NCBI RefSeq assembly: GCF_025370755.1 | Contig: NZ_JAMXFC010000044.1 | Span: forward strand, 1 to 47,037 | DNA from: Laspinema sp. D2d | GTDB lineage: Bacteria > Cyanobacteriota > Cyanobacteriia > Cyanobacteriales > Laspinemataceae | Direction of reading: 5' to 3' | Length of the DNA stretch: 47,037 bases | Part shown: piece after piece, positions 1-47,036 of the stretch | Layout of the letters: every line of letters starts with the position of its first letter | Position numbering within the stretch: the first letter of the stretch is position 1 | Position numbers and translations under genes: made by a program | The notes under the pieces: generated by a model | What the model saw: the letters and a program-made list of their open reading frames with translations, nothing else | What the model was told of the DNA's origin: nothing | Database searches by the model: none

Positions 1-58
1 GGAGATGGGGAGGATGGGGAGGATGGGGAGGATGGGGAGGATGGGGAGGATGGGGAAG
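1..58 (+). repeat. G-rich 9-nt tandem array (GGGGAGGAT type)
   Basis: About six copies of a 9-nt unit read GGGGAGGAT on the plus strand. The array runs off the left edge. It faces a C-rich array at 117-229, so the two form an inverted pair around a short AT-rich core. By analogy with the other arrays in the window it probably follows a plus-strand gene ending just left of the window, but that is inference. Confidence 0.85.
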
Positions 59-91
59 ATTAAGAATTTTGAGGATTAAGAATTTTTTAGT

Positions 92-107
92 AACGACTTC
101 AGTCGTT
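92..107. other. Short perfect palindrome in the array core
   Basis: AACGACT (92-98) and AGTCGTT (101-107) form a 7-bp stem with a 2-nt loop. It lies in the AT-rich core between the G-rich array at 1-58 and the C-rich array at 117-229. It may act with the flanking arrays as a terminator or barrier between genes; there is no direct evidence for function. Confidence 0.5.
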
Positions 108-116
108 TACACACCC

Positions 117-229
117 TCTCCCGTCTCTCCCCCATCTCCCCTATCCTCCCCATCCTCCCCATCTCCCCCATCCTCCCTATCTCCCCTATCTCCCCTATCT
201 CCCCCATCCTCCCCAAAACCCCCCGCCCC
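117..229 (-). repeat. G-rich 9-nt tandem array downstream of kinase stop codon
   Basis: On the plus strand this is a run of ATCTCCCCC/ATCCTCCCC-type 9-mers; read on the minus strand it is the G-rich repeat GGGGAGGAT/GGGGGAGAT. It begins immediately after the TGA stop (232-230) of the minus-strand histidine kinase, so the transcript of that gene would carry the G-rich strand. The same placement is seen at 27637, 28017 and 46879. Confidence 0.85.
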
Positions 230-2575
230 TCAAGCGCAGCGACTTTTAACGCAAGGTTGTTTAGCGGGAATTTGTATTAAAAACTCAGTCCCTTGGCCGG
301 GTTCGGAGTCACATTTGAGGACGCCACCATGTTTATCGACAACAATTTTATAACTAATGGAGAGGCCGAGTCCGGTCCCTTTGCCTACGGGTTTGGTGGT
401 AAAGAAGGGGTCAAATAGGCGTTTTTTAACTTCTTCGGTCATTCCGGGTCCGTTATCGCGAATGCGGATGGAGACTTCGGTGGGGTTGCCGAGGGCATCG
501 GTTTTGGCAATGTCGGTGCTGATTTTAATAATATGGGGTGCGCCTTGATTTTCCAGGGCGTCCATTGCGTTGGTGAGAATGTTCATGAAGACTTGATTGA
601 GTTGTCCGGCGTAACATTCCACTTTGGGGAGTTTCCCGTATTCTTTGACGAGTTCGACCCCGGGATCTTTACCTTTGGGTTTCCAGCGGTTGTGCAAAAT
701 GAGCAGGGTGTTATCAATGCCTTCGTGAATGTCTACGGGCTTCATTTCGGCTTCATCGAGACGAGAGAAGTTGCGCAAGGAGACGACGATTTGACGAATG
801 CGATCGGCCCCCATCTGCATGGAGGCGAGGATTTTAGGCAGATCTTCGAGGAGAAAGTCGAGGTCAATATCTTCGGAGACTTCCAGAACTTCGGGGGCGG
901 GATTAGGGTAAAGGGTTTGATAGACTTCGATCAGGTGGAGCAGGTCTTGGGTGTAGTTGTTGGCATGGACGAGGTTGCCGGTGATGAAGTTAACGGGGTT
1001 GTTGATTTCGTGGGCGATGCCTGCGACCATTTGTCCGAGGCTGGACATTTTCTCGGTTTGGATTAACTGGGCTTGGGTTTGTTTGAGGTTTTGCAGGGCG
1101 ACGCTGAGTTGTTGCGCTTGGGTTTGGGCGGCGAGGGCGGCGGCGTGGGTTTGGGCGTAGAGTTCGGCTTGGTCGATCGCCAGGGCGAGTTGATCGACGA
1201 CGCCTTGGAGGAGTTCGATTTCACTATCGGTCCAGGGGCGGGGTTGGCTATGGCTACAGACGACGGCCCCGAGTTGACCGGAACGGGTTTCTAAGGGGAG
1301 GAGGAGGACGGAGACAATCCCCATTTCTGAGAAGAGGGTGCGGGTTTTGTCGTCTAAGTCGGCGCTGGTATCGAGACGATCGCTGCGTAAGGATTCTAGG
1401 TCCCTAATTTTCTGGGTGAGGGGGCCGCTGAGGGAGGCGGGGTATTCGCACAGGAGATTTTTTTTGTTGAGCGATCGCGATTCATGGGTCACGGTGAGAC
1501 TCGGCTGAAGCGGATGAGGCAGATACCACAAAAAATGACAGCGGTCAATTTGTAACAGGGAGTGAATTTCGGTGACGGCGGTTTCGAGGATGGTGTCGAG
1601 GTCAAGGGAGTTGCGAATCTGACTGGCAAGGCGGAACAGCAAGCCTTCACGACGAGAGAGGAGGGCTTCCCGGGCGCGATCGCGATCGATGGCGAGGGCT
1701 AAAGTGCTCGATACCCAGATTAGGAGGTTTTGGACGGACTCGCTCACCCCATTCTCGATGACGACTGCCATTACGCCACAAATCTGGTCATCAATTACTA
1801 GGGGTTGCAGTAAACAATCCGGGTGGAGTTCACAATTTTCTAAAGTGTCGTTTTTGCCCCGTTCTCTTTGGCGAACCAAGCAGCCGGTATAAGTTTTACG
1901 GGTTTGCGCGACGGTGCCGATTTGGGTTTGTCCTAGAGGAATGCGATCGGGGAACAGTTCCTGGTCTAACAGAATCCCAGCAGTGGACCGCATTTCAAGT
2001 TCTTTAAGCGCGGGATTCAAGGTCCAAACTCCGGCAGAGCTGGCTTCTAAATACTCCACGATCGCCCTCATGATCGGCGGGAACAGGGTTTCTAAAGGTC
2101 CTCCTTTGGCGAGGAGTCGCCCGATTTGAGCGCTGAACTCATAGAGGCGACTGCTATTCAGGGGAGTTTCTTCGAGTTGGTTTGGGGGGGTCACATTTTG
2201 GAAATACACGGATAAACCTTCGGAGTTTGGGTAGGCTTGCATTTTTAAACACCGTCCCAGATAAAATGCCTCAGCGGTGACCGTCCGTGCCTCACCTAGG
2301 GCGCGTCGGTATTCCTCTATCAATTTAGACTGATTCCATTGGCTTAATTCTTGCCAAATATTTCTACCCATTAAAAGATGCCTGGGTTTTCCTAAAATTT
2401 CTTCACCCTGGGGGTTGATTTCGGTAAAATTCCACTCGCGATCTAGTCGAAAATAACCGACATTTTTTAAATCTTCCCCCAAGGCGATCGCGCAGGTATC
2501 GCAACAGGTCCTGATAATCGGGGCATCTGCTAGGGGTTGAAGATCACAGGACTGGATGTTACTCGTTTTATCCAT
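230..2575 (-). CDS. PAS-GAF-GAF sensor histidine kinase
   Basis: This 781-residue protein is a cytoplasmic hybrid-sensor histidine kinase without visible membrane segments. Residues about 30-130 look like a PAS domain (ends near VYFQNVTPP). Two GAF-like regions follow at about 150-300 and 310-470, then a coiled coil and a HisKA-type dimerisation helix with EKMSSLGQMVAGIAHEINNP, where His522 is the expected phosphorylation site. The ATPase domain shows the N box (LNQVFMNILTN, near 660), the G1 box DNGPGM (about 707) and the F/G2 region FFTTKPVGKGTGLGL. Its transmitter closely resembles those at 5250-6758 and 43028-45268. No response regulator is adjacent, so it is an orphan kinase; the ligand is unknown, although GAF domains may bind a bilin or small molecule. 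The start ATG at 2575 overlaps the end of a doubtful upstream ORF by 8 nt. Confidence 0.93.
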   Translation of the reverse strand: MDKTSNIQSCDLQPLADAPIIRTCCDTCAIALGEDLKNVGYFRLDREWNFTEINPQGEEILGKPRHLLMGRNIWQELSQWNQSKLIEEYRRALGEARTVTAEAFYLGRCLKMQAYPNSEGLSVYFQNVTPPNQLEETPLNSSRLYEFSAQIGRLLAKGGPLETLFPPIMRAIVEYLEASSAGVWTLNPALKELEMRSTAGILLDQELFPDRIPLGQTQIGTVAQTRKTYTGCLVRQRERGKNDTLENCELHPDCLLQPLVIDDQICGVMAVVIENGVSESVQNLLIWVSSTLALAIDRDRAREALLSRREGLLFRLASQIRNSLDLDTILETAVTEIHSLLQIDRCHFLWYLPHPLQPSLTVTHESRSLNKKNLLCEYPASLSGPLTQKIRDLESLRSDRLDTSADLDDKTRTLFSEMGIVSVLLLPLETRSGQLGAVVCSHSQPRPWTDSEIELLQGVVDQLALAIDQAELYAQTHAAALAAQTQAQQLSVALQNLKQTQAQLIQTEKMSSLGQMVAGIAHEINNPVNFITGNLVHANNYTQDLLHLIEVYQTLYPNPAPEVLEVSEDIDLDFLLEDLPKILASMQMGADRIRQIVVSLRNFSRLDEAEMKPVDIHEGIDNTLLILHNRWKPKGKDPGVELVKEYGKLPKVECYAGQLNQVFMNILTNAMDALENQGAPHIIKISTDIAKTDALGNPTEVSIRIRDNGPGMTEEVKKRLFDPFFTTKPVGKGTGLGLSISYKIVVDKHGGVLKCDSEPGQGTEFLIQIPAKQPCVKSRCA

Positions 2576-15662: not shown

Positions 15663-17318
15663 ATGCCAGTCATTCAGGGTACACCGTTCGATGATACTTT
15701 ACTCGGAAGCGCCAGTAATAATTTTATTTATGGATGGCAAGGCAATGATGTACTCACGGGCGCAGATGGGGAGGATATCCTCTACGGGGATGACGGAAAT
15801 GATAGTCTGACGGGAGGGAACAGTAATGACTTACTCGCTGGGAGTCAAGGTAATGATGTCTTAGATGGCGGGGATGGCAATGATATCCTCTATGGTGGAC
15901 AGTCTGATGATGTTTTAATGGGAGGATTGGGAGGCGATCGCCTGTTTGGAGATGCAGGATTCGACCTCTTTTATCTCGAATGGGGCGCAGATACCGTCAC
16001 TGGAGGCAAGGATAAAGATAGCTTTACTCTGTTTCCCACCCTAGGCGGTAATACTTTACCAGAAGCGGCGATTATTACGGATTTTAATCCCTTAGAAGAT
16101 GAACTGGAACTTACTGAGGGACTCACCTTTGAAGGGTTGAATATCTTTCAAGGAACGGGATTTTATGCCAAGGATACGATTATCCAGGACCGGAATACCG
16201 GGCGATATTTAGCCATTTTGCTGAATGTGGCAACGCCTAGCTTAATTCAACAGGACGTCACACAGACCCCAACCGAACCGGCAGAAGCAGCAAGCGAACT
16301 CCCCTTGATCACCTTTGCTAGTCCTTCACCGGGACCCTTAACGACTACGCCACCAGGAAATCCCCCAGTAAAACCACCCGGCAATCAACCCGACGATACC
16401 CTACCAGGAAATCAACCTGACGATACCCTACCGGGAAATCAACCTGACGATACCCTACCGGGAAATCAACCTGATGATACCCTACCAGGAAATCAACCTG
16501 ACGATACCCTACCGGGAAATCAACCTGACGATACCCTCCCAGGAAATCAGGCCCCCACTAACATTATCCTCTCCAATACCAGCATTGCCGAAAACAGTGC
16601 CGACGGCGCAATTATTGCCACCTTCTCAACCACCGATGCCGATGCCGAGGATACTCACAGCTACAGCTTATTAGATAATGCCGGTGGACGCTTTAACATT
16701 AATGGCAGTCAACTGATTGTTACCAATAGTGCCTTACTCGATTTTGAGACCACCCAGGCACACAATATTATTCTACAAACCACCGATTCGGAAGGGAATA
16801 CCTTTGACAAACCCTTTACCATTCAGGTTACCGACGTTAACGAGGAAATTCCCAATAATGCGCCGACAGATATCGCCTTATCAAATAGTGTCATGGATGA
16901 AAATAGTGCTAATGGTACTGTTATTGGCATCCTCAGCACTACTGACCCCGATGTCGGGGATACCCACAGTTACTCCTTAGTAGATAATGCAGGCGGCAGA
17001 TTTGCGATCGCCGGAAATCAACTCACCGTCGCCAATGGTGCGTTATTGGATTTTGAGACAGCGGACACTTATAATATTGTGGTGCAAACGACTGATGCTG
17101 CGGGTCAAACCTTTAGCAAAACCTTAGCTGTCACGGTCAATAATGTCAATGAAACTCCAACAGATTTGGCAGTTTCTAATTTAATCGTTGCCGAAAATAG
17201 TGCCAACGGGAATTTAATTGGTACCATCACTCCCACTGACCCCGATACCACTGATACCCTACTTACACCTTACTGGATAATGCCGGAGGTCGTTTTGCTA
17301 TATCCGCAAATCAGTTAA
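15663..17318 (+). CDS. N-terminal fragment: RTX repeats, linker and first cadherin-like repeats
   Basis: This 551-residue open part of the disrupted gene would be a secreted calcium-binding adhesin fragment. Residues 1-110 hold repeated RTX nonapeptides (GGxGxDxLx type, for example GGDGNDILYG). Residues about 110-215 form a beta-rich extension closely matched in the gene at 20160. The six linker units come next, then two full cadherin-like repeats and part of a third (motifs DENSANGTVIGIL, DTHSYSLVDNAGGRFAI). The last 15 or so residues (after DPDTTDT) are out of frame because of the deletion near 17259, and the frame then stops. AGGAG lies 11 nt before the ATG. It may still be translated as a truncated protein. 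Confidence 0.7.
   Translation: MPVIQGTPFDDTLLGSASNNFIYGWQGNDVLTGADGEDILYGDDGNDSLTGGNSNDLLAGSQGNDVLDGGDGNDILYGGQSDDVLMGGLGGDRLFGDAGFDLFYLEWGADTVTGGKDKDSFTLFPTLGGNTLPEAAIITDFNPLEDELELTEGLTFEGLNIFQGTGFYAKDTIIQDRNTGRYLAILLNVATPSLIQQDVTQTPTEPAEAASELPLITFASPSPGPLTTTPPGNPPVKPPGNQPDDTLPGNQPDDTLPGNQPDDTLPGNQPDDTLPGNQPDDTLPGNQPDDTLPGNQAPTNIILSNTSIAENSADGAIIATFSTTDADAEDTHSYSLLDNAGGRFNINGSQLIVTNSALLDFETTQAHNIILQTTDSEGNTFDKPFTIQVTDVNEEIPNNAPTDIALSNSVMDENSANGTVIGILSTTDPDVGDTHSYSLVDNAGGRFAIAGNQLTVANGALLDFETADTYNIVVQTTDAAGQTFSKTLAVTVNNVNETPTDLAVSNLIVAENSANGNLIGTITPTDPDTTDTLLTPYWIMPEVVLLYPQIS
16380..16541 (+). repeat. Six 27-bp coding repeats (GNQPDDTLP linker)
   Basis: Six tandem 27-bp units starting at 16380, 16407, 16434, 16461, 16488 and 16515 encode the 9-residue unit GNQPDDTLP. 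Differences are mostly silent. They form a flexible acidic, proline-containing linker between the RTX part and the cadherin-like repeats. The near-identity points to slippage or recombination in copy number. Confidence 0.9.
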
Positions 17319-17524: not shown

Positions 17525-18934
17525 TTGGGAGATTTAGCAACGGTTGACCCGGATCCAGGGGATATCCACAGCTACTCGTTAGTAGATAATGCCGGAGGAG
17601 GGTTTGCGATTTCGGGAACGCAAATCACTGTAGCGGATAGTACATTATTAGATTATGAAACGGGAACCAGTCACCCTATCACGGTTCGGACTACGGATGC
17701 AGGAGGTTTAACTTTTGATAAAACCTTTACCTTATCGGTGCCGAATTTGAATGAAACGCCAACGGATATGGCGGTGTCGAATACGGTGGTGAATGAGAAT
17801 AGTAGCAATGGGACAGCGATCGCGAATCTTACCACCACCGACCCGGATACCGCAGACACTTACACTTATTCACTGGTGGATAATGCCGGAGGACGGTTTG
17901 CACTTTCAGGGAATCAGCTAACCATTGCCAATGGTACATTATTAGACTATGAAACAGCAACCAGTCATCCGATTATCCTGCGCAGTACCGATGCGGGGGG
18001 TCTAAGTATTGATAAAAACTTTGTCATTACGCTAAATAATGTCAATGATCCGCCAGTATTGGTCATGAACTCACCTCTGAGTGTGACTCAACGGGGGATA
18101 ACTTCGATTACGAATAGTTTACTCCAAGTCACTGACCAAGATAATACTCCAGATCAACTCACTTATACTCTAGTTACTGCACCGACCACTGGACAGCTTA
18201 AGCTTGATAGTATCCCCCTATTTGTCAATGATACTTTTACCCAAGCTGACATTGATAGCACCCGAGTCAGCTATACTCACGGCTTAATTCAACTGATAAA
18301 TAATAGTATTTCTGACTACTCTCCCCAAATATCGGGGGCTAATGTGGTTTGGCAAAGCTATGATGACACACACTACAAAATATACTTTTACGATAGAAAT
18401 AGCGTCACTCAACTGACCAATAATAGCACTCAGGACAACTTTCCGGAAATATCCGGGTCTAACATAGTTTGGCAAGGGTTTGATGGCACAGACTTTGAAA
18501 TCTACTTTTACGATGGAAATAGTACCACCCAACTGACCAATAATAGCACTCAGGACCGCTTTCCCCAAATATCCGGGTCTAACGTGGTTTGGCAGGGCGT
18601 TGATGGCACAGAAACAGAAATCTACTTTTACGATGGAAATAGCACCACCCAACTGACCAATAATAGCACTGATGACATTAATCCCCAAATATCAGAGTCT
18701 AATGTGGTTTGGCAGAGGTCTGATGATACAGACTATGAGATCTACTTTTACGATAGAAATAACGCCACCACGAGCCAACTGACCAATAATAGCATTGATG
18801 ACTCCCAGCCCCAAATATCTGGGTCTCACCTGGTTTGGACAGGTTCTGATGGCACAGATGACGAGATTGGCATTGCACATCTATGGTATGATGAGGAGGT
18901 AGCCTCTACCTCTAGAAAATATGATTTGTCCTAA
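17525..18934 (+). CDS. C-terminal fragment: cadherin-like and TolB-like repeats
   Basis: This 469-residue open frame continues the disrupted gene after the frameshift. The frame is actually readable from about 17261; 17525 is only a TTG with no support as a real start. It contains the end of the fourth cadherin-like repeat, a fifth (NENSSNGTAIANLTTTDPD), a cadherin/CSPG-type domain start (SVTQRGITSITNSLLQVTD, QADIDSTRVSYTH) and then TolB-like repeats. The final 22 residues (after DGTDDEI) are encoded by the left end of the inserted IS element. It is probably not expressed as such. Confidence 0.5.
   Translation: MGDLATVDPDPGDIHSYSLVDNAGGGFAISGTQITVADSTLLDYETGTSHPITVRTTDAGGLTFDKTFTLSVPNLNETPTDMAVSNTVVNENSSNGTAIANLTTTDPDTADTYTYSLVDNAGGRFALSGNQLTIANGTLLDYETATSHPIILRSTDAGGLSIDKNFVITLNNVNDPPVLVMNSPLSVTQRGITSITNSLLQVTDQDNTPDQLTYTLVTAPTTGQLKLDSIPLFVNDTFTQADIDSTRVSYTHGLIQLINNSISDYSPQISGANVVWQSYDDTHYKIYFYDRNSVTQLTNNSTQDNFPEISGSNIVWQGFDGTDFEIYFYDGNSTTQLTNNSTQDRFPQISGSNVVWQGVDGTETEIYFYDGNSTTQLTNNSTDDINPQISESNVVWQRSDDTDYEIYFYDRNNATTSQLTNNSIDDSQPQISGSHLVWTGSDGTDDEIGIAHLWYDEEVASTSRKYDLS
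18291..18868 (+). repeat. Five 120-bp TolB-like coding repeats
   Basis: Units begin at 18291, 18411, 18531, 18651 and 18777, with spacings of 120, 120, 120 and 126 bp. Each encodes about 40 residues of the form QLTNNSTQD..PQISGSNVVWQG followed by DGTDxEIYFYDGN. The pattern resembles beta-propeller TolB/PD40-type blades. The array interrupts a cadherin/CSPG-like domain between YTH and GTSLNDSLMF, and its last unit is cut by the IS1 element. Confidence 0.85.
18869..18892 (+). repeat. IS1 left terminal inverted repeat
   Basis: This 24-bp end matches the reverse complement of 19635-19658 with a single mismatch (18872 against 19655). The 8-bp target copy ACGAGATT lies directly to its left at 18861-18868. 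Confidence 0.95.
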
Positions 18935-20159: not shown

Positions 20160-23100
20160 ATGACAGTCATTCAAGGTACAGCGTTCGATGATAGCTTACT
20201 CGGAACCCAGGGCGATGATTTTATCTATGGGTGGCAAAGCAATGATGTTCTTGATGGTGCAGAAGGAGACGATATCCTTTACGGGGATGAAGGAAATGAT
20301 AGTCTCACGGGGGGGAATGGCAATGACTTACTCGCAGGGGGTCAAGGCAATGATGTCTTAGATGGTGGGGAAGGTAACGACATCCTCTATGGTGGAGAGG
20401 GGGATGATATTGTAATTGGAGGATTGGGAGGCGATCGCCTGTTTGGAGATGCTGGAATTGACCGATTTATCCTCGAATTCGGTGCTGATACCGTCACCGG
20501 AGGGAAAGATGGCGATATCTTCATCCTCTCACCCACCCTCGGGGGTCCAACTTTGGCAGAAGCAGCCATTATCAATGACTTTAGCACCCTGGAAGACTCA
20601 CTCGACCTAATGGGTGGACTCACCTTTGAAGGATTAAATGTTTTTCAAGGCACGGGAACCTATAGCAACGATACCATTATTCAAGACCGCAGCAATGGCC
20701 GCTACTTGGCAATTTTGCTGAATGTCCCAACTCCCAGTTTTGTTGACAACTTTATCCCAGAAACCCCGCCAGTAGCAGAAGCAGAAGCAGAAGCGCCAGC
20801 ACCAGAAACCCTCAGCGAACAACCCTACATCATCTTTGCCAGTCCGGCACTCATTAAACCATCGGGAAGTACCACACCGGGAAACACTACACCCCCGGGG
20901 AACACTACACCGCCAGGAAATACGCCACCAGATACTAATACGCCACCAGATACTAATACGCCACCAGATACTAATACGCCACCAGATACTAATACACCAC
21001 CAGATACTAATACACCACCAGATATTAATACACCACCAGATACTAATACGCCACCAGATACTAATACGCCACCAGATACTAATACGCCACCAGATACTAA
21101 TACACCACCTGCTGAATCTACTGCGGGTACTCTGGAATTTAGTGTCACCAACTTTTCTGTCAATGAAGATGGCAGCGCCGTGGTTAGCGTCACGGTACAG
21201 CGCACGGGAGGCAATACGGGGTCAGTTGGTGCTAGGGTTACATTGATTAATGGTACAGCAACTGCTCCGGGTGACTATAATAATGCTCCCTTAACAGTTA
21301 ACTTTGGTGATGGTGATACGACTTCCAAAATTATAACGATTCCCATCGTTGACGACGCTTTGATAGAAGGTACAGAAACGGTTAATTTAACCTTGGCTAG
21401 TCCTACGGGTGGAGCCAGTATTGGCGCGCAAAGTACCGCGACCCTAGAGATTTGGGATAATGAATTGCCTTCTCCTGGTATCCTGCAATTTAGTGCTGTC
21501 GATTTTTCAGTCAATGAGGATGGCACCCCCGTAGTGGCAGTGACAGTGACTCGCGGCGGTGGCAGCAAAGGAGCAGTTAGCGCTCAAATTATCCCCGTTG
21601 ATGGTACAGCGATCGCTCCTGATGATTATAGTAATGCTCCGGTTACCGTTAACTTTGCTGATGGTGACAATACACCAAAAACTGTCCCGATCGCCCTGGT
21701 CGATGATATCTTAGTGGAAGGAGACGAAACGGTTAATTTAAGTTTATTTAGTCCCACTGGCGGCGCAATATTGGGCAGTCAAAATACGGCAACTTTAACC
21801 CTTAACGATAACGAACAAGCAGCAGCGGTTCAATTTAGCAATTCTACTTATCTCGTGAGCGAAAATGGGGGAACTGCCACCATTACGGTGACCCGCAGCA
21901 ATGGCAATGGTATCGTTAGCATTGACTATGCCACCAGCCAGCCTACAACTGGAATTGCTGCTACTGCGGGATCTGATTATAGCGCCACCAGTGGCACTCT
22001 CACTTTTAATTCCGGAGAAACAACCAAAACCATTACTGTCCCCATTCTCGATGATACAGTAGTGGAACAGACGGAGACGGTACAGTTAACCCTGTCAAAT
22101 CCTACAGGTAGCGCACAATTGGGAACACAGGCAACCGCAACCTTAGAGATAGCTGACGATGAAGCGGGGATAATAGAATTCGCCAGTGCTACCTTTAGCG
22201 GTACAGAAGGCAATAGTGGCAGTCCGCTCAACAAAGGGGTTGCCACAGTCAAGCGATCGGGTGGCAGTGATGGCGCAGTCACCGTGCAGGTGGTGTTAGA
22301 CAATCCATCGGGGACGGCAACTGCACCGGATGATTATACTAATAATCTGCCCATTACCCTCAATTGGGCGGATGGGGATACGGCTGAAAAAGAAGTGACC
22401 CTCCCCATTGTTGAAGATGGGATCGATGAGTTCAATGAAACCATTAATCTCAAGTTGCTCGATGCCTCTGGCGGCGCAACTCTGGGAACGCAACAAACAG
22501 CGATTTATACCCTTGTTAATGACGATAGTAATCTCCCCACCGCTGCCAACTTAGTTGCACCCATCCTTACGGTAGGGGGCGGTGCAACCTATAATTTTAC
22601 AGTAGACTATGCTGATGATGTGGCAGTGGATATCAGTAGTTTAGATAGTTCCGATGTTGTCGTCACCGATCCCAATGGGGTTACAATTCCCGTAACTTTT
22701 GTCAGCGTCACCCCTACGGGCAACGGTACACCACGCACGGCGACTTATCAAATTGCTGCGCCGGGAGGCAGTTGGGATGCGGCAGATAATGGCAGTTATG
22801 CCGTCAATTTGGCGGCGACTCAAGTATTAGATAATACCGGCAATGCGGCAGCAGCGATTAATCTGGGGAGTTTTACCGTCAATGCACCGCCGATTGTACC
22901 TGTGGTGACAGTGGCAGCAAGTCAAGGAACCACCCTAGAAGATAGCGCTACGGCATTAGTTTACACCTTGACACGCACTGAAAGTATTAACACGCCGCTT
23001 TCCAGTCCGTTGACGGTTAATTATACGATTGGCGGAACAGCAACGACTGCCGATAGTGATTTTACCCCACCCAGTGTCACTGTTACGTTTGCTCCAAATT

Positions 23101-26829: not shown

Positions 26830-27636
26830 ATGACTGATTTTTGGGATCAAGTTCTACACTTTGCGGAGACGACCGCGAATAAGGTCGGTAAAGAGCTAAT
26901 GGCTGATTTCGGCCAAGTGCAGGCAGTAGAAAAAGCCGATGGCAGCTTAGTCACGCAATCGGACAAATGGGCCGATCGGGAACTATGCGATGCGATCGCC
27001 AATCGCTTCCCGGATCATGGGGTCCTCAGCGAAGAATCCGCACATATCTTTCCCGATACCGAATGGTGTTGGATTATCGACCCCCTAGACGGCACCACCA
27101 ATTTTGCCCGCCGTATCCCCATCTGGGGGGTTTCTCTCGGCCTGCTTTATCGCGGGACCCCCGTCTTTGGGTATGTCCATTTACCCCCCCTCCATCAATC
27201 ATTCCACGGGTTCTGGTCCGGCACAACGGGACTGAAATTACCCCAAGGAGCCTTTGTTGATCGCCGCCGAATTCACAGCAGTTCCGATCCACTGGATGCT
27301 AACCAATTTTTTAGCTTCTGTTCCCGCAGTATTGGCAACTATCAACCTGATTTCCCCTGCAAAATTAGAATGTTAGGCGTTGCCAGCTACAATTTCCTCA
27401 CCGTCGCTGCCGGGATTACCCTCGGCGGAGTAGAAGCAACCCCCAAAATTTGGGATATTGCCGGAGTTTGGCCGATCGTCCAAGCTGCCGGTGCCCTCTG
27501 GCATCCCCTAGAAACCGAACCCATTTTTCCCCTAACCCCCGGCACCAATTACGGAGATCGCTCCTTCCCCACTCTCGTCACCGCACAACGGGATCTCCTG
27601 CCTGTTTTTGAACCCTTTGTTAAATCTTTGGGGTAG
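26830..27636 (+). CDS. Inositol monophosphatase family protein
   Basis: This 268-residue enzyme belongs to the Mg2+-dependent, Li+-sensitive phosphatase superfamily. Metal and catalytic motifs are present: GVLSEES (64-70), DPLDGTTNF (84-92) and WDIAGVWPIVQAAG (208-221, Asp209). Possible substrates include myo-inositol phosphate, histidinol phosphate (HisN-type) or related sugar phosphates; the sequence alone does not decide. It lies 88 nt after the PucC-like gene on the same strand, which may mean co-transcription. A G-rich 9-nt array starts directly after its TAG stop. Confidence 0.9.
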   Translation: MTDFWDQVLHFAETTANKVGKELMADFGQVQAVEKADGSLVTQSDKWADRELCDAIANRFPDHGVLSEESAHIFPDTEWCWIIDPLDGTTNFARRIPIWGVSLGLLYRGTPVFGYVHLPPLHQSFHGFWSGTTGLKLPQGAFVDRRRIHSSSDPLDANQFFSFCSRSIGNYQPDFPCKIRMLGVASYNFLTVAAGITLGGVEATPKIWDIAGVWPIVQAAGALWHPLETEPIFPLTPGTNYGDRSFPTLVTAQRDLLPVFEPFVKSLG

Positions 27637-27785
27637 GGGAGATGGGGAGGGTGGGGGAGATGGGGGAGATGGGGGAGATGGGGGAGATGGGGAGGATGGG
27701 GGAGATGGGGGAGATAGGGGAGATAGGGGAGATAGGGAGGATGGGGGAGATAGGGGAGATGGGGAGGATGGGGGAGATAGGGAGG
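27637..27785 (+). repeat. G-rich 9-nt tandem array after the phosphatase stop
   Basis: About sixteen 9-nt units of types GGGGGAGAT, GGGGAGGAT and AGGGGAGAT begin at the base after the TAG stop (27634-27636). The sense strand of the gene is the G-rich strand. It pairs as an inverted repeat with 27900-28017 across a 114-bp core. Confidence 0.9.
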
Positions 27786-27815
27786 AACTCTGGTGTCATA
27801 GTTCTACCCTGACAC

Positions 27816-27875
27816 GCAATCTGGAGACTCTGACGCCTGCCTGCTTCCAGACTGGAGGCTTTGCCTCCAGATTGC
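27816..27875. other. Alternative hairpins in the core between the arrays
   Basis: CTGGAGGC (27852-27859) pairs with GCCTCCAG (27863-27870) in a tight hairpin. GCAATCTGGAG (27816-27826) can instead pair with CTCCAGATTGC (27865-27875). The two structures are mutually exclusive. The core sits midway between inverted arrays that separate two convergent genes, so it may form part of a two-way terminator. Confidence 0.55.
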
Positions 27876-27899
27876 TTGACTCGCTTAAGCTAAGTCATG

Positions 27900-28017
27900 A
27901 GCCATCTCCTACTATCCTCCCCATCTCCCCTATCTCCCCTATCTCCCCTATCTCCCCTATCTCCCCCATCCTCCCCATCTGCCCCATCCTCCCCATCTGC
28001 CCCATCTCCCCTCATCC
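27900..28017 (-). repeat. G-rich 9-nt tandem array after the ChaN-like gene stop
   Basis: On the plus strand this reads as C-rich 9-mers (ATCTCCCCT, ATCCTCCCC, ATCTGCCCC). On the minus strand, the sense strand of the ChaN-like gene, it is G-rich and begins at the base after that gene's TGA (28020-28018). It is the inverted partner of 27637-27785. Confidence 0.9.
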
Positions 28018-28923
28018 TCAGTGTTCCCAAAAATAGTCCGCAATGGGCCGATCGCCTGCTGAGGGGAGTTCTTCAGGAATATTAAATAACACCGATCGCT
28101 GGACAAAAGGTTCCTTTCCTAGGCGATCGCCCACTCGTCTCTCCACCCGACTGGGAATCCCATATCCATACACAATATGCCCTTGTCCCGCTAAAACAAC
28201 CACCTGAGTCTGAGGATTTCCTGTTACAAATTCCGTAATGGTTTCAGCCATTGTTTCATCCCACAAAACTTGCGCTAAAAAGAAATTCTCAAACTTCAAA
28301 CTTGACCCCTGTGCCGCTGCTTGATGTTGTTCAAACACTTCACGTATCATCTGCTGATAGTTCAGGTTATCGGTCTTAATTTCGGTAAAGGGGGGAATAT
28401 ATTCCCGGTCTTGTATGCTTAACCCTTCTAACCCATTCCCCGCTACTGTTCGGGTAACTTCCATCGGTGCATTTAACGCTAAAAGTGGCAAGTTATGTTC
28501 TTTAGCAAATCGCACAATCTCGGCATAATACTCCCAAGGAAATCCCCAGCGTTTCTCGTATTCTGTTTCTGCAATCAGTTCAATTTCTGTGATTTCTCCC
28601 TGTAAATAACGGTTGATTGCCCCTTGATAGGGACGCTGGAACATTTCCATCGCGATCGCCATATTGGGATTCTTCCGATGTAAGGCGCGGATAATCTCCA
28701 ACTGTGCTTGATGATCCGCTTCACTATCGTGAGTTTCCCCTAAATAAACCACATGGGCTTTACCTAATTCAGGCAGCACCTGTTCCGGGGGTAATAGTCG
28801 AGAAAAAAGACTATTAAGTTCAGGGATTCCAGGGGTGATTTCCACCCCTTGGACTGATAAAGTACAAGCTAAAATAATCCCCAACGAGCAAGTACCGAGT
28901 TTAATCAGGTCAGTTTTTTTCAT
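28018..28923 (-). CDS. ChaN-family lipoprotein
   Basis: This protein of about 301 residues has a lipoprotein signal (MKKTDLIKLGTCSLGIILAC, lipobox ILAC with Cys20 as the likely lipidated residue). The rest belongs to the ChaN/haem-binding-uptake (Tiki-like) family: VYLGETHDSEADH (the GExH signature) near the N-terminus, AMEMFQRPYQGAINRYL in the middle, and VVLAGQGHIVYGYGIPSR near the C-terminus. ChaN of Campylobacter binds haem and is linked to iron uptake; here the role is inferred only from the family. ATG 28923 is preferred to the TTG one codon earlier. The gene starts 3 nt after the stop of the LemA gene, so the two form an operon. Confidence 0.88.
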   Translation of the reverse strand: MKKTDLIKLGTCSLGIILACTLSVQGVEITPGIPELNSLFSRLLPPEQVLPELGKAHVVYLGETHDSEADHQAQLEIIRALHRKNPNMAIAMEMFQRPYQGAINRYLQGEITEIELIAETEYEKRWGFPWEYYAEIVRFAKEHNLPLLALNAPMEVTRTVAGNGLEGLSIQDREYIPPFTEIKTDNLNYQQMIREVFEQHQAAAQGSSLKFENFFLAQVLWDETMAETITEFVTGNPQTQVVVLAGQGHIVYGYGIPSRVERRVGDRLGKEPFVQRSVLFNIPEELPSAGDRPIADYFWEH

Positions 28924-28926
28924 CAA

Positions 28927-31411: not shown

Positions 31412-33055
31412 ATGTTAACTCATTTTTCTCGTAACAAAACAAAGATCTGGGGAATATTATTTGGATTATCCCTAATTTTATTTCCCTTGCTCACTCACGC
31501 TTTTTCAGTACAAGATGTGCCAAATCCCCGGCAACAATCGGGGGGATGGGTGACGGATATGGCGAATATCCTCAGCGAGAGTACCGAAACTCAACTGAAT
31601 CAGATGATATCGGAATTAGAGGCAACCACGGGGGCAGAAATTGCCGTGGTGACGGTCCCTGAAACCGCCCCCTTTCCCACTCCAAAAGACTTTACTACAG
31701 CACTATTTAATGAATGGAAAATTGGGAAAGAAGGCGTAGATAATGGCGTTCTATTTTTAACTTCCGTCGGAGATAGAAGAATTGAAATTGAAACGGGATA
31801 TGGTGTCGAGGGACTCTTGCCGGATGCCAAAGTAGGTAATATTATTACGACTCAAATCACGCCAAAACTGCGCGAAGGAGATTGGGATGGAGGCATATTA
31901 GCGGGAACCCTAGCCTTAGTCACCGAGTTATCTGGAAATCCCCCAGTCAAAGAGTTTTCAGAACCCTCTTCTCCAACGCCATTGCTGGGGATTACTTCTT
32001 TGGTAGCTTTTATCTTCTCTTTCGGTGGCTATAAAAAAGTCCAATCCATGATAGAACAACCGCTATCCCTAGAACCCAAAGGGCGATCGCTGGTCATTGG
32101 TAAGTTCGATAACCGCCTCCCAACAGGAGTTTCGGCGTGGATTTATGCGGCTGTCTTTAGTCTCTCTTTCGGTCTAATTTTGCTTATCCTCATCGGTGAT
32201 CCTTCAGGGATGCTGTGGCAAAGATTGGCGATCGTTTCCGTGGGAGTTGGTTCTTTATTGTTGATAGTGGATCTATGGCGGGTGATGTATCACTACGTCA
32301 CAACTAATGTTCTAGTCAATACGCAATTTTTCAATTCAAAAATCATCGCTGGTTTCCTAACTTTTGTGTTATTTGATGTCGCGCTTGTATTAATTATTCC
32401 CATCGGGATAACTACAATTTATGGAATTAGTCAGGCTATTTCCATGCCTTTATCTGGTTTCCCAGAATTGAGCGGATTATTCCTATTTCTCTGGGTGCTA
32501 GTTTCTATGGTAGTGAGCTATATTGTTTCTCGGGGGATTATCGCCCTCTTACGAGTCAAACTGCCGGTAAAATGCCAGAAATGTGAAATTCCCTTAACTA
32601 AACTAAAGCGAGATATTCTCTGCGATCGCTTCACTCCCCCGCAACAAGTCGCCCAACGATTAGGCAGTACCCGATTTGAAGGGTGGCATTGTTCCCACTG
32701 TTATCCTAATGATTCATCCAGCTTTCATCTCAGACGCTATCTACTTAATCAGCATCGCTTTAGTGAATGTCCCCATTGTCAAGAATTTACGATGATTGTT
32801 GTTGAACAAAATACCTTGCAACAAGCTACTTATCAACAAGGGGGAATTCTCCAGATTATTTATGAATGTCAATCTTGCAATTATCGTGAGGATAACGAGC
32901 AAAAAACTCCCCGCTTAACAAGACACAGTAGCAGTGGTTATGGGGGGAGTTATGGCGGTGGGGGTGGCAGTTTTGGTGGCGGTGGTGGCGGTGGTGGCGG
33001 TGGTGGGTTTGGCGGTGGCAGCAGTGGCGGTGGTGGTGCGGGGGGAAATTTTTAA
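31412..33055 (+). CDS. TPM-domain (YgcG-like) membrane protein with cysteine-rich module
   Basis: This protein of about 547 residues starts with a signal peptide (FGLSLILFPLLTHA). A full TPM domain follows (about residues 40-175; motifs GGWVTDMANILS, GAEIAVVTVPETAP, NGVLFLTSVGDRRIEIETGYG and VEGLLPDAKVG). Several membrane helices come next (about 185-400), then cysteine pairs CQKC, CSHC, CPHC and CQSC, and a long Gly tail ending SSGGGGAGGNF. TPM proteins are linked to envelope functions, and plant TLP18.3 acts in photosystem II repair as an acid phosphatase; the role here is not known. The start ATG 31412 is chosen because the upstream extension lacks signal character. It lies 92 nt after the first paralogue. 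Confidence 0.88.
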   Translation: MLTHFSRNKTKIWGILFGLSLILFPLLTHAFSVQDVPNPRQQSGGWVTDMANILSESTETQLNQMISELEATTGAEIAVVTVPETAPFPTPKDFTTALFNEWKIGKEGVDNGVLFLTSVGDRRIEIETGYGVEGLLPDAKVGNIITTQITPKLREGDWDGGILAGTLALVTELSGNPPVKEFSEPSSPTPLLGITSLVAFIFSFGGYKKVQSMIEQPLSLEPKGRSLVIGKFDNRLPTGVSAWIYAAVFSLSFGLILLILIGDPSGMLWQRLAIVSVGVGSLLLIVDLWRVMYHYVTTNVLVNTQFFNSKIIAGFLTFVLFDVALVLIIPIGITTIYGISQAISMPLSGFPELSGLFLFLWVLVSMVVSYIVSRGIIALLRVKLPVKCQKCEIPLTKLKRDILCDRFTPPQQVAQRLGSTRFEGWHCSHCYPNDSSSFHLRRYLLNQHRFSECPHCQEFTMIVVEQNTLQQATYQQGGILQIIYECQSCNYREDNEQKTPRLTRHSSSGYGGSYGGGGGSFGGGGGGGGGGGFGGGSSGGGGAGGNF

Positions 33056-40400: not shown

Positions 40401-40788
40401 GGGGCCTTACTGGATTCGATTCGGTAGTGAACGCTGCTCCGTGATTCAGGCCGAGAGTGAGTTGTCTCTCGTCAATCCCCAACTCAAAAAAAAAGTAAAT
40501 GCGAACAACATCGTTCCTTTCGCTCGTAAAGCGGCCACTGTTGCTGCCTAACAACCTCTAGCAGGTTTGAGCGGTCTGTAGCTTGACTCCGTTAAAGGCT
40601 GCGGACAAACCCTCAACGGATGCTCTAGTAAGGTTTCTCTGGTTACTTGCTAGTTAAGACTTAACCTGAGTATCCTGTCATCCGGGATAATGGATGGTCC
40701 CCGCCCAGAGGGTTAAATGGGCTATGCCTGTGAATGAGCGGTAAGTTAATAACTATTGAAGACACGGGTTCGATCCCCGTAGGCTCCA
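40401..40788 (+). ncRNA. ssrA: tmRNA (transfer-messenger RNA)
   Basis: This RNA of about 388 nt begins GGGGCCTTACTGGATTCGAT and ends in a tRNA-like T arm (GGGTTCGATCCCC) and the 3' acceptor strand AGGCTCC, which pairs with the 5' GGGGCCT. The tag reading frame starts at GCG 40501 and ends at TAA 40549-40551, encoding ANNIVPFARKAATVAA, the typical cyanobacterial degradation tag. The stretch after the tag frame is rich in pairing arms, as expected for the pseudoknots. The 3' CCA is not encoded. tmRNA rescues stalled ribosomes and tags the nascent peptides for proteolysis with SmpB. Confidence 0.97.
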
Positions 40789-40797
40789 TAATCATCA

Positions 40798-45591: not shown

Positions 45592-46878
45592 GTGCTCGAT
45601 ATCAAGCAAATCCGGGAAAATCCACAAACCATACAGGAACGCCTGAACCGGCGAGGTGAAGGCTATGATTTACAGCCCATATTAGAGTTAGATCGCAAAG
45701 TGCGAGAATTAGAGACCCAGAGATCGCAACTTCAAGCCCGCAGTAACGAAATTGGCAGACTGATCGGACAACAGATGAAATCCGGCAGCAAACCGGATGA
45801 CCCCGCCATTCAAACCTTAAAAGAAGAAGGCGACCTGTGGAAAACTGTACGGAGCAGCGACCTCGAACCCCGAGAAAGAGAACTCAAAGCCGAACTCGAC
45901 AACCTCCTCTTAAACCTCCCCAACCTCCCCAGCGAATCCACTCCTGTGGGGAAAAGCGAAACCGAAAACGTCGAAGTGCGTCGCTGGGGTGACGAATATC
46001 TGCCGAAACATGACCAAATTCGCCCCCACTGGGAAATTGGCGAACAAATGGGGATTATCGACTTTGAACGGGGAGTAAAAATTGCCCAAAGTCGATTTAT
46101 CAGCCTAATTGGGGCCGGTGCCGCCTTAGAACGAGCTTTAATTAGCTTTATGCTCGATCGCCACATCCGCCACGGTTATATAGAAGTCATGCCGCCGGTT
46201 CTCATTAATAGCACCTCCCTGCGTGGGACCGGCCAACTTCCGAAATTTTCAGAAGAAAGCTTTCAATGTAGTGAGGATGACCTCTGGCTGGCCCCCACCG
46301 CCGAAGTCCCCGTCACCAATCTCTATCGTGATGATATTCTCGCACCGGAGAATTTACCGATTAATCACTGTGCCTATACCCCTTGTTTTCGCCGGGAAGC
46401 GGGGGCCTATGGCAAAGATACCCGAGGATTGATTCGACTCCATCAATTTAATAAAGTGGAACTGGTCAAAATCGTGGCTCCAGAGACCTCTGAAGAGGAA
46501 CATCAAGCCCTGGTAAAGGATGCCGAAGCCATTCTACAAGCATTGCAACTGCCGTATCGGGTATTGGAACTCTGCACCGGAGATATCGGCTTTGGGGCGC
46601 AAAAGTGCTACGACTTAGAAGTCTGGTTACCCTCTTCGGGCAAATATCGGGAGATTTCTAGTTGTTCTAACTGTGGAGATTTCCAAGCTAGACGCGCCTC
46701 TATTCGCTTCAAAGAAGCAGGGAAAAAGGGCACTCAATTTGTCCATACCTTGAATGGATCCGGTTTGGCTGTGGGACGAACAATGGCAGCAATTTTAGAA
46801 AACTATCAGGATCCAGATGGTACAGTTCGGATTCCCGAAGTGCTGCAACCCTATCTCGGAGGGAAAACGGTCTTGTAG
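45592..46878 (+). CDS. serS: Seryl-tRNA synthetase
   Basis: This 428-residue cytosolic class II synthetase charges tRNA-Ser (and tRNA-Sec where present) with serine using ATP. The N-terminal coiled-coil arm (about 30-105) is visible in [19 protein letters not shown]. The catalytic core holds [13 protein letters not shown] (serine-binding TAE), motif 2 around [22 protein letters not shown] (about 265-286), the [20 protein letters not shown] region and motif 3 [20 protein letters not shown]. The length is that of standard bacterial SerRS. The start is GTG 45592, with GAGGA 6 nt before it. A G-rich 9-nt array begins at the base after its TAG stop. Confidence 0.97.
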
Positions 46879-47011
46879 GGAGATGGGGGAGATGGGGGAG
46901 ATAGGGGAGATAGGGGAGATAGGGGAGATAGGGGAGATGGGGGAGATGGGGGAGATAGGGGAGATAGGGGAGATAGGGGAGATAGGGGAGATAGGGGAGA
47001 TAGGGGAGATA
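46879..47011 (+). repeat. G-rich 9-nt tandem array after the serS stop
   Basis: Roughly fourteen 9-nt units of types GGGGGAGAT and AGGGGAGAT start at the base after the serS TAG (46876-46878), on the sense strand. The array is very homogeneous. It runs into a strong hairpin at 47012-47036. Confidence 0.92.
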
Positions 47012-47036
47012 GGGGCGGTTCTTCCCCAACCGCCCC
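47012..47036 (+). terminator. GC-rich hairpin at the end of the serS array
   Basis: GGGGCGGTT (47012-47020) pairs with AACCGCCCC (47028-47036) around CTTCCCC, a perfect 9-bp stem at the right window edge. It may terminate the serS transcript; whether a T tract follows cannot be seen. Confidence 0.6.

Follow-up and report, generated by a model that had tools for sequence, protein, structure and literature searches.

The window analysed here, a stretch of 47,037 nucleotides, is an entire contig (C47) of the genome of Laspinema sp. D2d (G000; 6.63 Mb in 83 contigs), and its outer arrays therefore touch the contig ends. We found that it contains five arrays of a 9-nt unit, RGGGRRGAT, which occurs in two main forms, referred to below as GA (GGGGGAGAT/AGGGGAGAT) and AG (GGGGAGGAT/AGGGAGGAT). 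Four of the five arrays form two facing inverted pairs, A (1-60/134-214) and B (27636-27782/27904-28012). The adjoining genes, checked against Pfam, are serS, an inositol-monophosphatase-family gene, a ChaN-family gene and a gene for a GAF-domain histidine kinase. The features are arranged as follows:

1-60 (+): left arm of pair A, six G-rich 9-nt units (five GGGGAGGAT, one GGGGAAGAT), at the contig start
61-125 (no strand): spacer of pair A, containing the palindrome GTAACGACTTCAGTCGTTTAC
126-229 (-): right arm of pair A with a G-rich lead-in; nine strict units at 134-214 (five of GGGGAGAT type, four of GGGAGGAT type)
230-2575 (-): histidine kinase gene; the right arm of pair A lies in sense to it, the first unit about 16 nt past the stop
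26830-27636 (+): inositol-monophosphatase-family gene
27636-27782 (+): left arm of pair B, 15-16 units, mainly GGGGGAGAT/AGGGGAGAT, beginning at the last base of the phosphatase stop codon
27783-27903 (no strand): spacer of pair B, with short stem-loops inside
27904-28017 (-): right arm of pair B, mixed units, in sense to the ChaN-family gene; 6 nt from TGA to the first unit
28018-28926 (-): ChaN-family gene
45592-46878 (+): serS
46878-47015 (+): serS array, about 15 units (14 counted), all of GGGGAGAT type, directly 3' of the stop; the partner arm lies outside the contig
47012-47036 (+): GC-rich hairpin GGGGCGGTT/AACCGCCCC at the contig end, overlapping the last G run of the serS array

The four arrays named in the original prediction are all present, and in each the G-rich strand is the sense strand of the adjoining gene, as had been stated. 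Their start at the base right after the stop codon is accurate for the phosphatase array, which takes in the last base of TAG, and for serS, where GGAGAT follows straight after TAG. At the ChaN-family gene TGA is followed by GGATGA and only then by the array, and for the kinase the wording "directly abuts" is true only loosely, as the bases between TGA and the first true unit are G-rich without being the repeat. The fifth array (1-60, +) and the facing inverted pairs had been missed; some arrays are indeed single elements, as the original prediction took all of them to be, but many are arms of inverted pairs. Elsewhere in the window, a full-length model match to tmRNA at 40401-40791 (+) is the sole Rfam match at gathering score. 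Further tandem repeats lie within window ORFs at 16376-16549 (27-nt period), 18314-18858 (120), 20919-21109 (18) and 32953-33038 (3-15), and these are likely protein repeats.

The placement of the arrays was analysed in a sample of 2,237,136 bases (34% of G000) taken in stretches, namely nearly all of C2-C4, most of C6-C11, the first 20 kb of C12-C45 (or all of the contig, if shorter), and C1, C5 and C47. Contig starts are probably array-enriched in this sample, because assemblies break at arrays. Genes were called with our own codon-pair script, which is unvalidated and misses some genes (1504 genes, 76% coding), and three or more units were counted as an array, shorter runs being left uncounted. 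Over G000 as a whole, a 22-nt pattern gave 604+535 matches and its reversed control 0+0. The sample holds 77 arrays. A sense gene precedes 38 of them, and in 34 of these cases the array begins no more than 20 nt from its stop codon (30/34 when the window's own arrays are left out, 33/38 under a slightly different gene assignment). For 58 arrays the gap has a called gene on either side, and 29 of the 58 are in sense and no more than 20 nt from a stop. Randomizing position and strand within the same gap gave a mean of 3.2 and a maximum of 10 (1000 shuffles), and placement in any gap a mean of 1.5 and a maximum of 5 (300 shuffles); an opposite-sense array lies this close to a stop in 1/58 cases. 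The table of stop distance and strand over this 2.24 Mb and the shuffles (0/1000 as high, in a third of the genome) thus bear out the claim of an exact, directional placement beyond chance, and the proposal of a 3'-UTR element fits the stop-side, sense placement.

Convergent gaps are over-used by arrays (14 vs. 5.4 expected) and divergent gaps under-used (9/58 vs. 17.6 expected). Exceptions include four of the 38 sense arrays, found 89-537 nt from a called stop, and six of the 77 arrays inside called genes, five of them antisense; some of these ill-fitting arrays may be gene-calling errors. Array-free gene ends show no general sense-strand G bias after the stop, a unit being present in the first 40 nt at eight genes and in the opposite sense at six. 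An adjacent array is found at only about 2% of the sampled gene ends (29/1466). Array-adjacent genes end in TAG or TGA in 21/29 cases, compared with 571/1423 other genes (Fisher p 0.0008), and the serS stop is TAG in G000 and TAA in all seven same-genus relatives; judging from these codons, arrays seem to run into the stop. In relatives, the start is no more than 20 nt from a stop for 8 of 13 sense arrays from 20 G005 loci and for 14 of 22 from 26 Laspinema/HE19 loci. In other groups the rule is weak or undecided, with 2/8 sense arrays in Nostocaceae, 3/4 in Spirulina and 3/9 in other cyanobacteria, and nulls that are not clearly beaten.

Read from the gene outward, the common order is stop codon, 0-20 nt, G-array, spacer, C-array and next gene. 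The C-arm is present at 19 of the 29 stop-adjacent arrays and absent from 10. Opposite-strand neighbours no more than 300 nt apart face each other in 23/23 cases in G000, where four further neighbours are on the same strand, and the G005 loci, before the removal of duplicates, hold 20 facing, 0 back-to-back and 5 same-strand entries. The 19 stop-adjacent pair entries of G000, in which three convergent elements are entered from both sides, have median arms of 89 and 80 nt and spacers of 20-148 nt, and their arm lengths are uncorrelated within pairs (rho 0.07, 19 entries). For window positions 27637-28017 the predicted RNA fold reaches -283.4 kcal/mol (z -13.5; 0/100 shuffles as good), and over the 19 entries the predicted fraction of the G-arm paired to the C-arm is 0.30-0.97. 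The RNA G-quadruplex suggested in the original prediction is energetically possible for the G-arm alone, which gains 8 to 92 kcal/mol in a quadruplex-aware fold. With both arms present, some quadruplex is kept in the best fold of 6/19 entries but is absent from that of the other 13/19, because the G-arm pairs with the C-arm. As for unit number, 10/77 arrays have four units and 26/77 have eight or nine. Adjacent units are alike in 255 of 543 cases (0.47 vs. 0.41 expected), and arms often mix unit types. At C3 125901-125962 and C2 239552-239712 of G000 the unit variants largely alternate, amounting to an 18-nt higher-order unit.

A feature new here is that the two arms of a pair tend to lean to opposite unit variants (GGGGGAGAT vs. 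GGGGAGGAT or GGGGGGGAT) when they are close. The GA-unit share of one arm is negatively correlated with that of the other in G000 (rho -0.71, p 0.0001, n=23), in the 3-contig relative G005 (rho -0.68, p 0.008, n=14) and in G002 (rho -0.77, p 0.014, n=9), the G002 loci having been fetched by a pattern favouring GA in the C-arm; three HE19/D2a pairs gave rho -0.87, which is not significant. Ten of the G005 stretches were chosen as facing neighbours from lists showing unit types, like and unlike together, and seven of the ten proved to be pairs as defined here. The relation depends on the spacer (G000 and G005 together: rho -0.83, n=16, at up to 60 nt; rho -0.12, n=13, above 120 nt) in a test devised after the data had been seen. 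The unit match between arms in G000 is 0.17 for short spacers, compared with 0.42 for swapped arms, and 0.41 vs. 0.42 for long ones; the G005 values are 0.29 vs. 0.48 (4 pairs) and 0.39 vs. 0.43 (8 pairs), respectively. Between spacer length and unit likeness, rho is 0.47 in G000 (p 0.02) and 0.28 in G005 (p 0.33). Keeping one pair per spacer cluster in G000 (20 clusters) leaves rho at -0.67, and neighbouring arrays more than 300 bp apart are without relation (rho -0.10, n=34). At the phosphatase/ChaN site, G005 and G006 carry mostly AG units (GGGAGGAT type) on the phosphatase side and GA units on the ChaN side, and G002 has the reverse (GGGGAGAT type on the phosphatase side). As the polarity at one site flips between species, the unlike state can be remade and is not only inherited. 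A facing pair of Nodosilinea nodulosa PCC 7104 (L118, 3621-3895), with 12 GA units and 11 GGGGGGGAT-type units, is unlike again.

Own arms pair less well than swapped ones, by 6.5% as RNA (p 0.005) and by 8.3% as DNA (p 0.008), in a set of 17 entries from which twice-entered elements were imperfectly removed; the RNA value indicates that exact RNA pairing is not being improved. The longest exact inverted repeat is 19.3 for own and 21.4 for swapped arms in G000 (p 0.07), 15.6 and 16.9 in G005 (p 0.22; 7 pairs), 12.6 and 17.0 in G002 (p 0.017), and 11.8 and 20.3 in eight Laspinema/HE19 pairs overlapping G002 (p 0.009), so that the exact-match effect is weak in G000 and G005, the sets not fetched by unit-type pattern. 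The simplest cause of unlike arms would be the avoidance of long exact inverted repeats in DNA. We rejected several other candidates. The difference between the RNA and DNA losses is too small alone to argue that RNA pairing is kept while DNA pairing is spoiled. A replication-strand cause finds no match in the unit types by strand along the G005 chromosome, which by eye show no consistent split into two halves. Inheritance from one seed element disagrees with the paucity of spacer links (3 among 23 pairs), with the relation that persists by cluster and with its absence beyond 300 bp, yet shared descent may explain some cases; a clustering by shared 8-mers lumped 20/23 pairs and was discarded as uninformative. 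Finally, a short-read assembly artefact may affect G000, several of whose contigs begin in arrays, but the same relation is seen in the 3-contig G005.

The array pattern is present in 7/7 same-genus genomes searched (21 to 1152 matches); in 31 further relatives searched it is rare or missing, with matches in 10 of them and never more than 32. Among the matches listed for an exact 27-mer (80 of 101 loci), the named genomes include Laspinema, Oscillatoria, Nostoc, Spirulina and others; this 27-nt triplet also appears there in Arsenophonus (L083) and in an Akkermansia MAG (L078). G002 and Laspinema olomoucense D3b have the same arrays (L332 vs. L056). The phosphatase/ChaN stop-to-stop distance in eight same-genus genomes, G000 included, is 59, 114, 167, 215, 317, 322, 381 or 472 nt, the shortest being a simple hairpin of -24 kcal/mol in G001 and the longest, in G004, containing a run of N; G000 has 381 nt. 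Given that one site spans a 59-nt hairpin and 381 nt, arrays probably grow in place. In G003 (L268) this gap carries TTGGTCA-type heptamer arms and in G008, of another genus (L271), TAATTGA-type arms, as though the sequence had been exchanged while the two-armed form stayed. In G003 a 26-nt heptamer pattern matches 84 times, and in G000 we found just one heptamer array per pattern searched. At serS the relatives have anything between an incomplete single unit and about ten units.

Orthologous gene ends were compared starting from 20 G005 stretches, 15 G002 loci and 13 of 16 D3b loci among the matches listed. Counting duplicates, 28 of their array rows have a sense gene next to them, and 12 of these matched the G000 sample, 10 being distinct (nine from G005, one from G002). 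In G000, 9/10 of these ends have an array and 1/10 has a one-unit seed, compared with 29/1466 gene ends overall. These arrays have therefore long been at their sites, where their length and unit composition vary, and spread by copying to gene ends, which the original prediction offered as an alternative, is unneeded at the sites compared.

T-tract terminators were sought with a simple detector (hairpin + T-tract), the tandem array-free gaps being 400 drawn at random. A T-tract hairpin was scored in 1/19 paired gaps, 5/10 single-array gaps and 388/693 array-free gaps; after letter shuffling, 4/19, 1/10 and 221/693 were still positive, respectively, hence the detector is lax. In array-free gaps matched for non-array length a mean of 6.9/19 had a T-tract hairpin, and 0/200 resamples were as low as 1. 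The Rho RNA-binding domain PF07497 gave no match in G000 and was found in 9/14 control genomes; to our knowledge, cyanobacteria are without Rho. In Synechococcus elongatus, according to the available part of a published report, only 22% of transcription units end at canonical-like intrinsic terminators, the majority being ended by none of the known pathways (PMC13289151).

Variants of the palindrome GTAGTAACGACTTCAGTCGTTAC lie in several of the spacers; its layout of GTAG plus stem resembles that of GTAG-tagged REPs. The palindrome and its variants are dispersed, occurring at window positions 61-125 and in the same-genus loci L250-L256 and L265-L270, with several copies in L267. The G000 sample contains 15 GTAGTAACGAC halves, of which 4 lie within 60 nt of an array. 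GTAG-stem-loop matches number 99, against 75 in the reversed control, and 16 of the 99 have the stems AACGAC/AACGACT (overlapping matches counted apart). Two pairs have an identical 20-nt spacer in common, and there are three spacer links in all among the 23 pairs. The spacers of C21, C27 and C36 look related by eye, the formal link being only C21-C27.

We tentatively favour, at a little under an even chance, the explanation that the elements are 3'-end stem-loops which make or guard mRNA ends and have been lengthened by unit gain. The starting point would be a short stem between the stop codon and the next gene, with a G-rich 5' arm and a C-rich 3' arm, which in several cases may have surrounded the small dispersed palindrome. 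Gain of 9-nt units in place would lengthen each arm, and in RNA the G-array and the C-array would pair, giving a highly stable hairpin immediately 3' of the stop. The probable task of such a hairpin would be to generate or shield the 3' end of the mRNA, acting in both directions where two genes converge, in an organism without a detected Rho domain and at sites mostly without a T-tract terminator. That close arms tend to be unlike would be explained most simply by an instability of long exact inverted repeats in DNA. Several findings count against a 3'-end role: the small share of gene ends that carry an adjacent array, the 10/29 arrays that are single-armed, five of them with an ordinary T-tract hairpin, the fast turnover of length and unit content, expected of neutral repeats too, the poorer RNA pairing of own arms and the frequent mixture of units within arms. 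A second possibility, quite real but ranked behind the stem-loop explanation, is that of neutral G-rich tracts, prone to slippage, which came up once at a large number of gene ends and have persisted there while their length drifts. The stop codon would then merely bound the spread of an array, tolerated because 3' UTRs are little constrained. Neutral tracts agree with the rapid change of length and units at fixed sites, with the excess of TAG/TGA and the serS stop, TAG here and TAA in the seven same-genus relatives, which look as if the repeat had entered the stop, and with the range from 21 to 1152 pattern matches among same-genus relatives. However, neutral drift does not predict that arrays start at the stop and not at some other point of the gap, that all 23 opposite-strand neighbours face each other, that paired gaps are without T-tract terminators, or that nearby arms are unlike.

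An RNA or DNA G-quadruplex, with a single post-stop G-array folding in the transcript to act in termination or stability and an incidental C-arm, seems unlikely to us. The energy gained by G-arms alone, the quadruplex retained in six pair entries, the existence of single arrays (10/29) and the in vitro quadruplexes reported for related heptamer repeats in the part of the source available (PMC4692102) speak for it; yet the 13 entries whose best fold is free of quadruplex once both arms are present, the lack of a four-unit preference and the similar frequency of T-tract hairpins in single-array and array-free gaps (5/10 vs. 388/693) do not. Less probable still is a mobile element, that is a small palindrome with G-rich ends which inserts after stops and spreads by copying. 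The GTAGTAACGACTTCAGTCGTTAC variants in several spacers, with the layout of GTAG-tagged REPs as given in the available part of that source (PMC3733652), and the 20-nt spacer identical in two pairs would suit insertion, but the orthologous sites compared already hold an array or seed (10/10), spacer links are just 3 among 23 pairs and just 4/15 palindrome halves lie near an array. The interpretation given in the original prediction is partly supported, and the observation behind it is real and general.

Returning to the 3'-end stem-loops, a more specific and more doubtful proposal is that they are two-armed 3'-end hairpins lacking a U-tract, in cyanobacteria without Rho, whose arms are kept unlike in such a way that the RNA pairs and the DNA avoids a long exact palindrome. 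This would be distance-dependent, would allow the polarity to flip, and might lie behind some of the unexplained 3' ends of cyanobacterial mRNAs. The repeat family occupies the very places at which an mRNA needs its end, most of them devoid of a T-tract terminator, and mapping these sites by 3'-end sequencing would directly test one non-canonical way to end or protect messages. The unlike-arms rule offers a signature, open to counting, of whatever may allow long inverted repeats to persist in the genomes of bacteria.

Among known systems, the short tandem intergenic repeats of filamentous cyanobacteria (STRRs) are composed of heptamers. The repeats described here are likewise short, tandem and intergenic in a filamentous cyanobacterium, but differ in the 9-nt unit and in the strict stop position, and we know of no strict stop-codon position for STRRs. 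Intrinsic terminators share the GC-rich hairpin directly 3' of the stop; unlike them, 18/19 paired gaps here are without a T-tract hairpin, and the stems are far longer. REP/BIME elements are small stem-loop repeats and, as far as the available part of the source goes, plausibly transcribed RNA elements downstream from coding regions (PMC3733652). GTAG-tagged REPs, as presented there, resemble in layout the GTAG-plus-stem spacer palindrome, whereas the arms here are tandem arrays with the medians given above and not GTAG- or CGTC-tagged palindromes of 20-40 nt. The 9-nt repeat is named in none of the titles and abstract openings listed in the literature searches, subscription papers lying outside their scope. 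The nearest described repeats are the G-rich heptamers GGGAATC of Xanthomonas and GGGGA(C/T)T of Nostoc sp. PCC 7120 (Rehm et al., 2015; PMC4692102). In the available part of that report they prefer the sense strand within 50 bp of the stop, form facing inverted pairs in Xanthomonas (70 and 75 cases) and few in Nostoc, and mostly keep their gene neighbours in related species while their length changes (PMC4692102). The G000 repeats are similar in being dispersed, intergenic, G-rich and tandem, with a stop-side sense bias, facing pairs, kept neighbours and varying length. They differ from the heptamers, as these are described in that part of the report, in the unit (9-nt RGGGRRGAT instead of 7-nt GGGNATC or GGGGA(C/T)T), in the lack of a four-unit preference, in starts bunched within 20 nt of the stop, in inverted pairs that are common here in contrast to Nostoc, and in unlike arms, which that part does not mention (PMC4692102). 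By comparison with the text available, the G000 repeats stand apart as a variant of these heptamer repeats in their 9-nt unit, their tight start, their unlike arms and their lack of a preference for four units.
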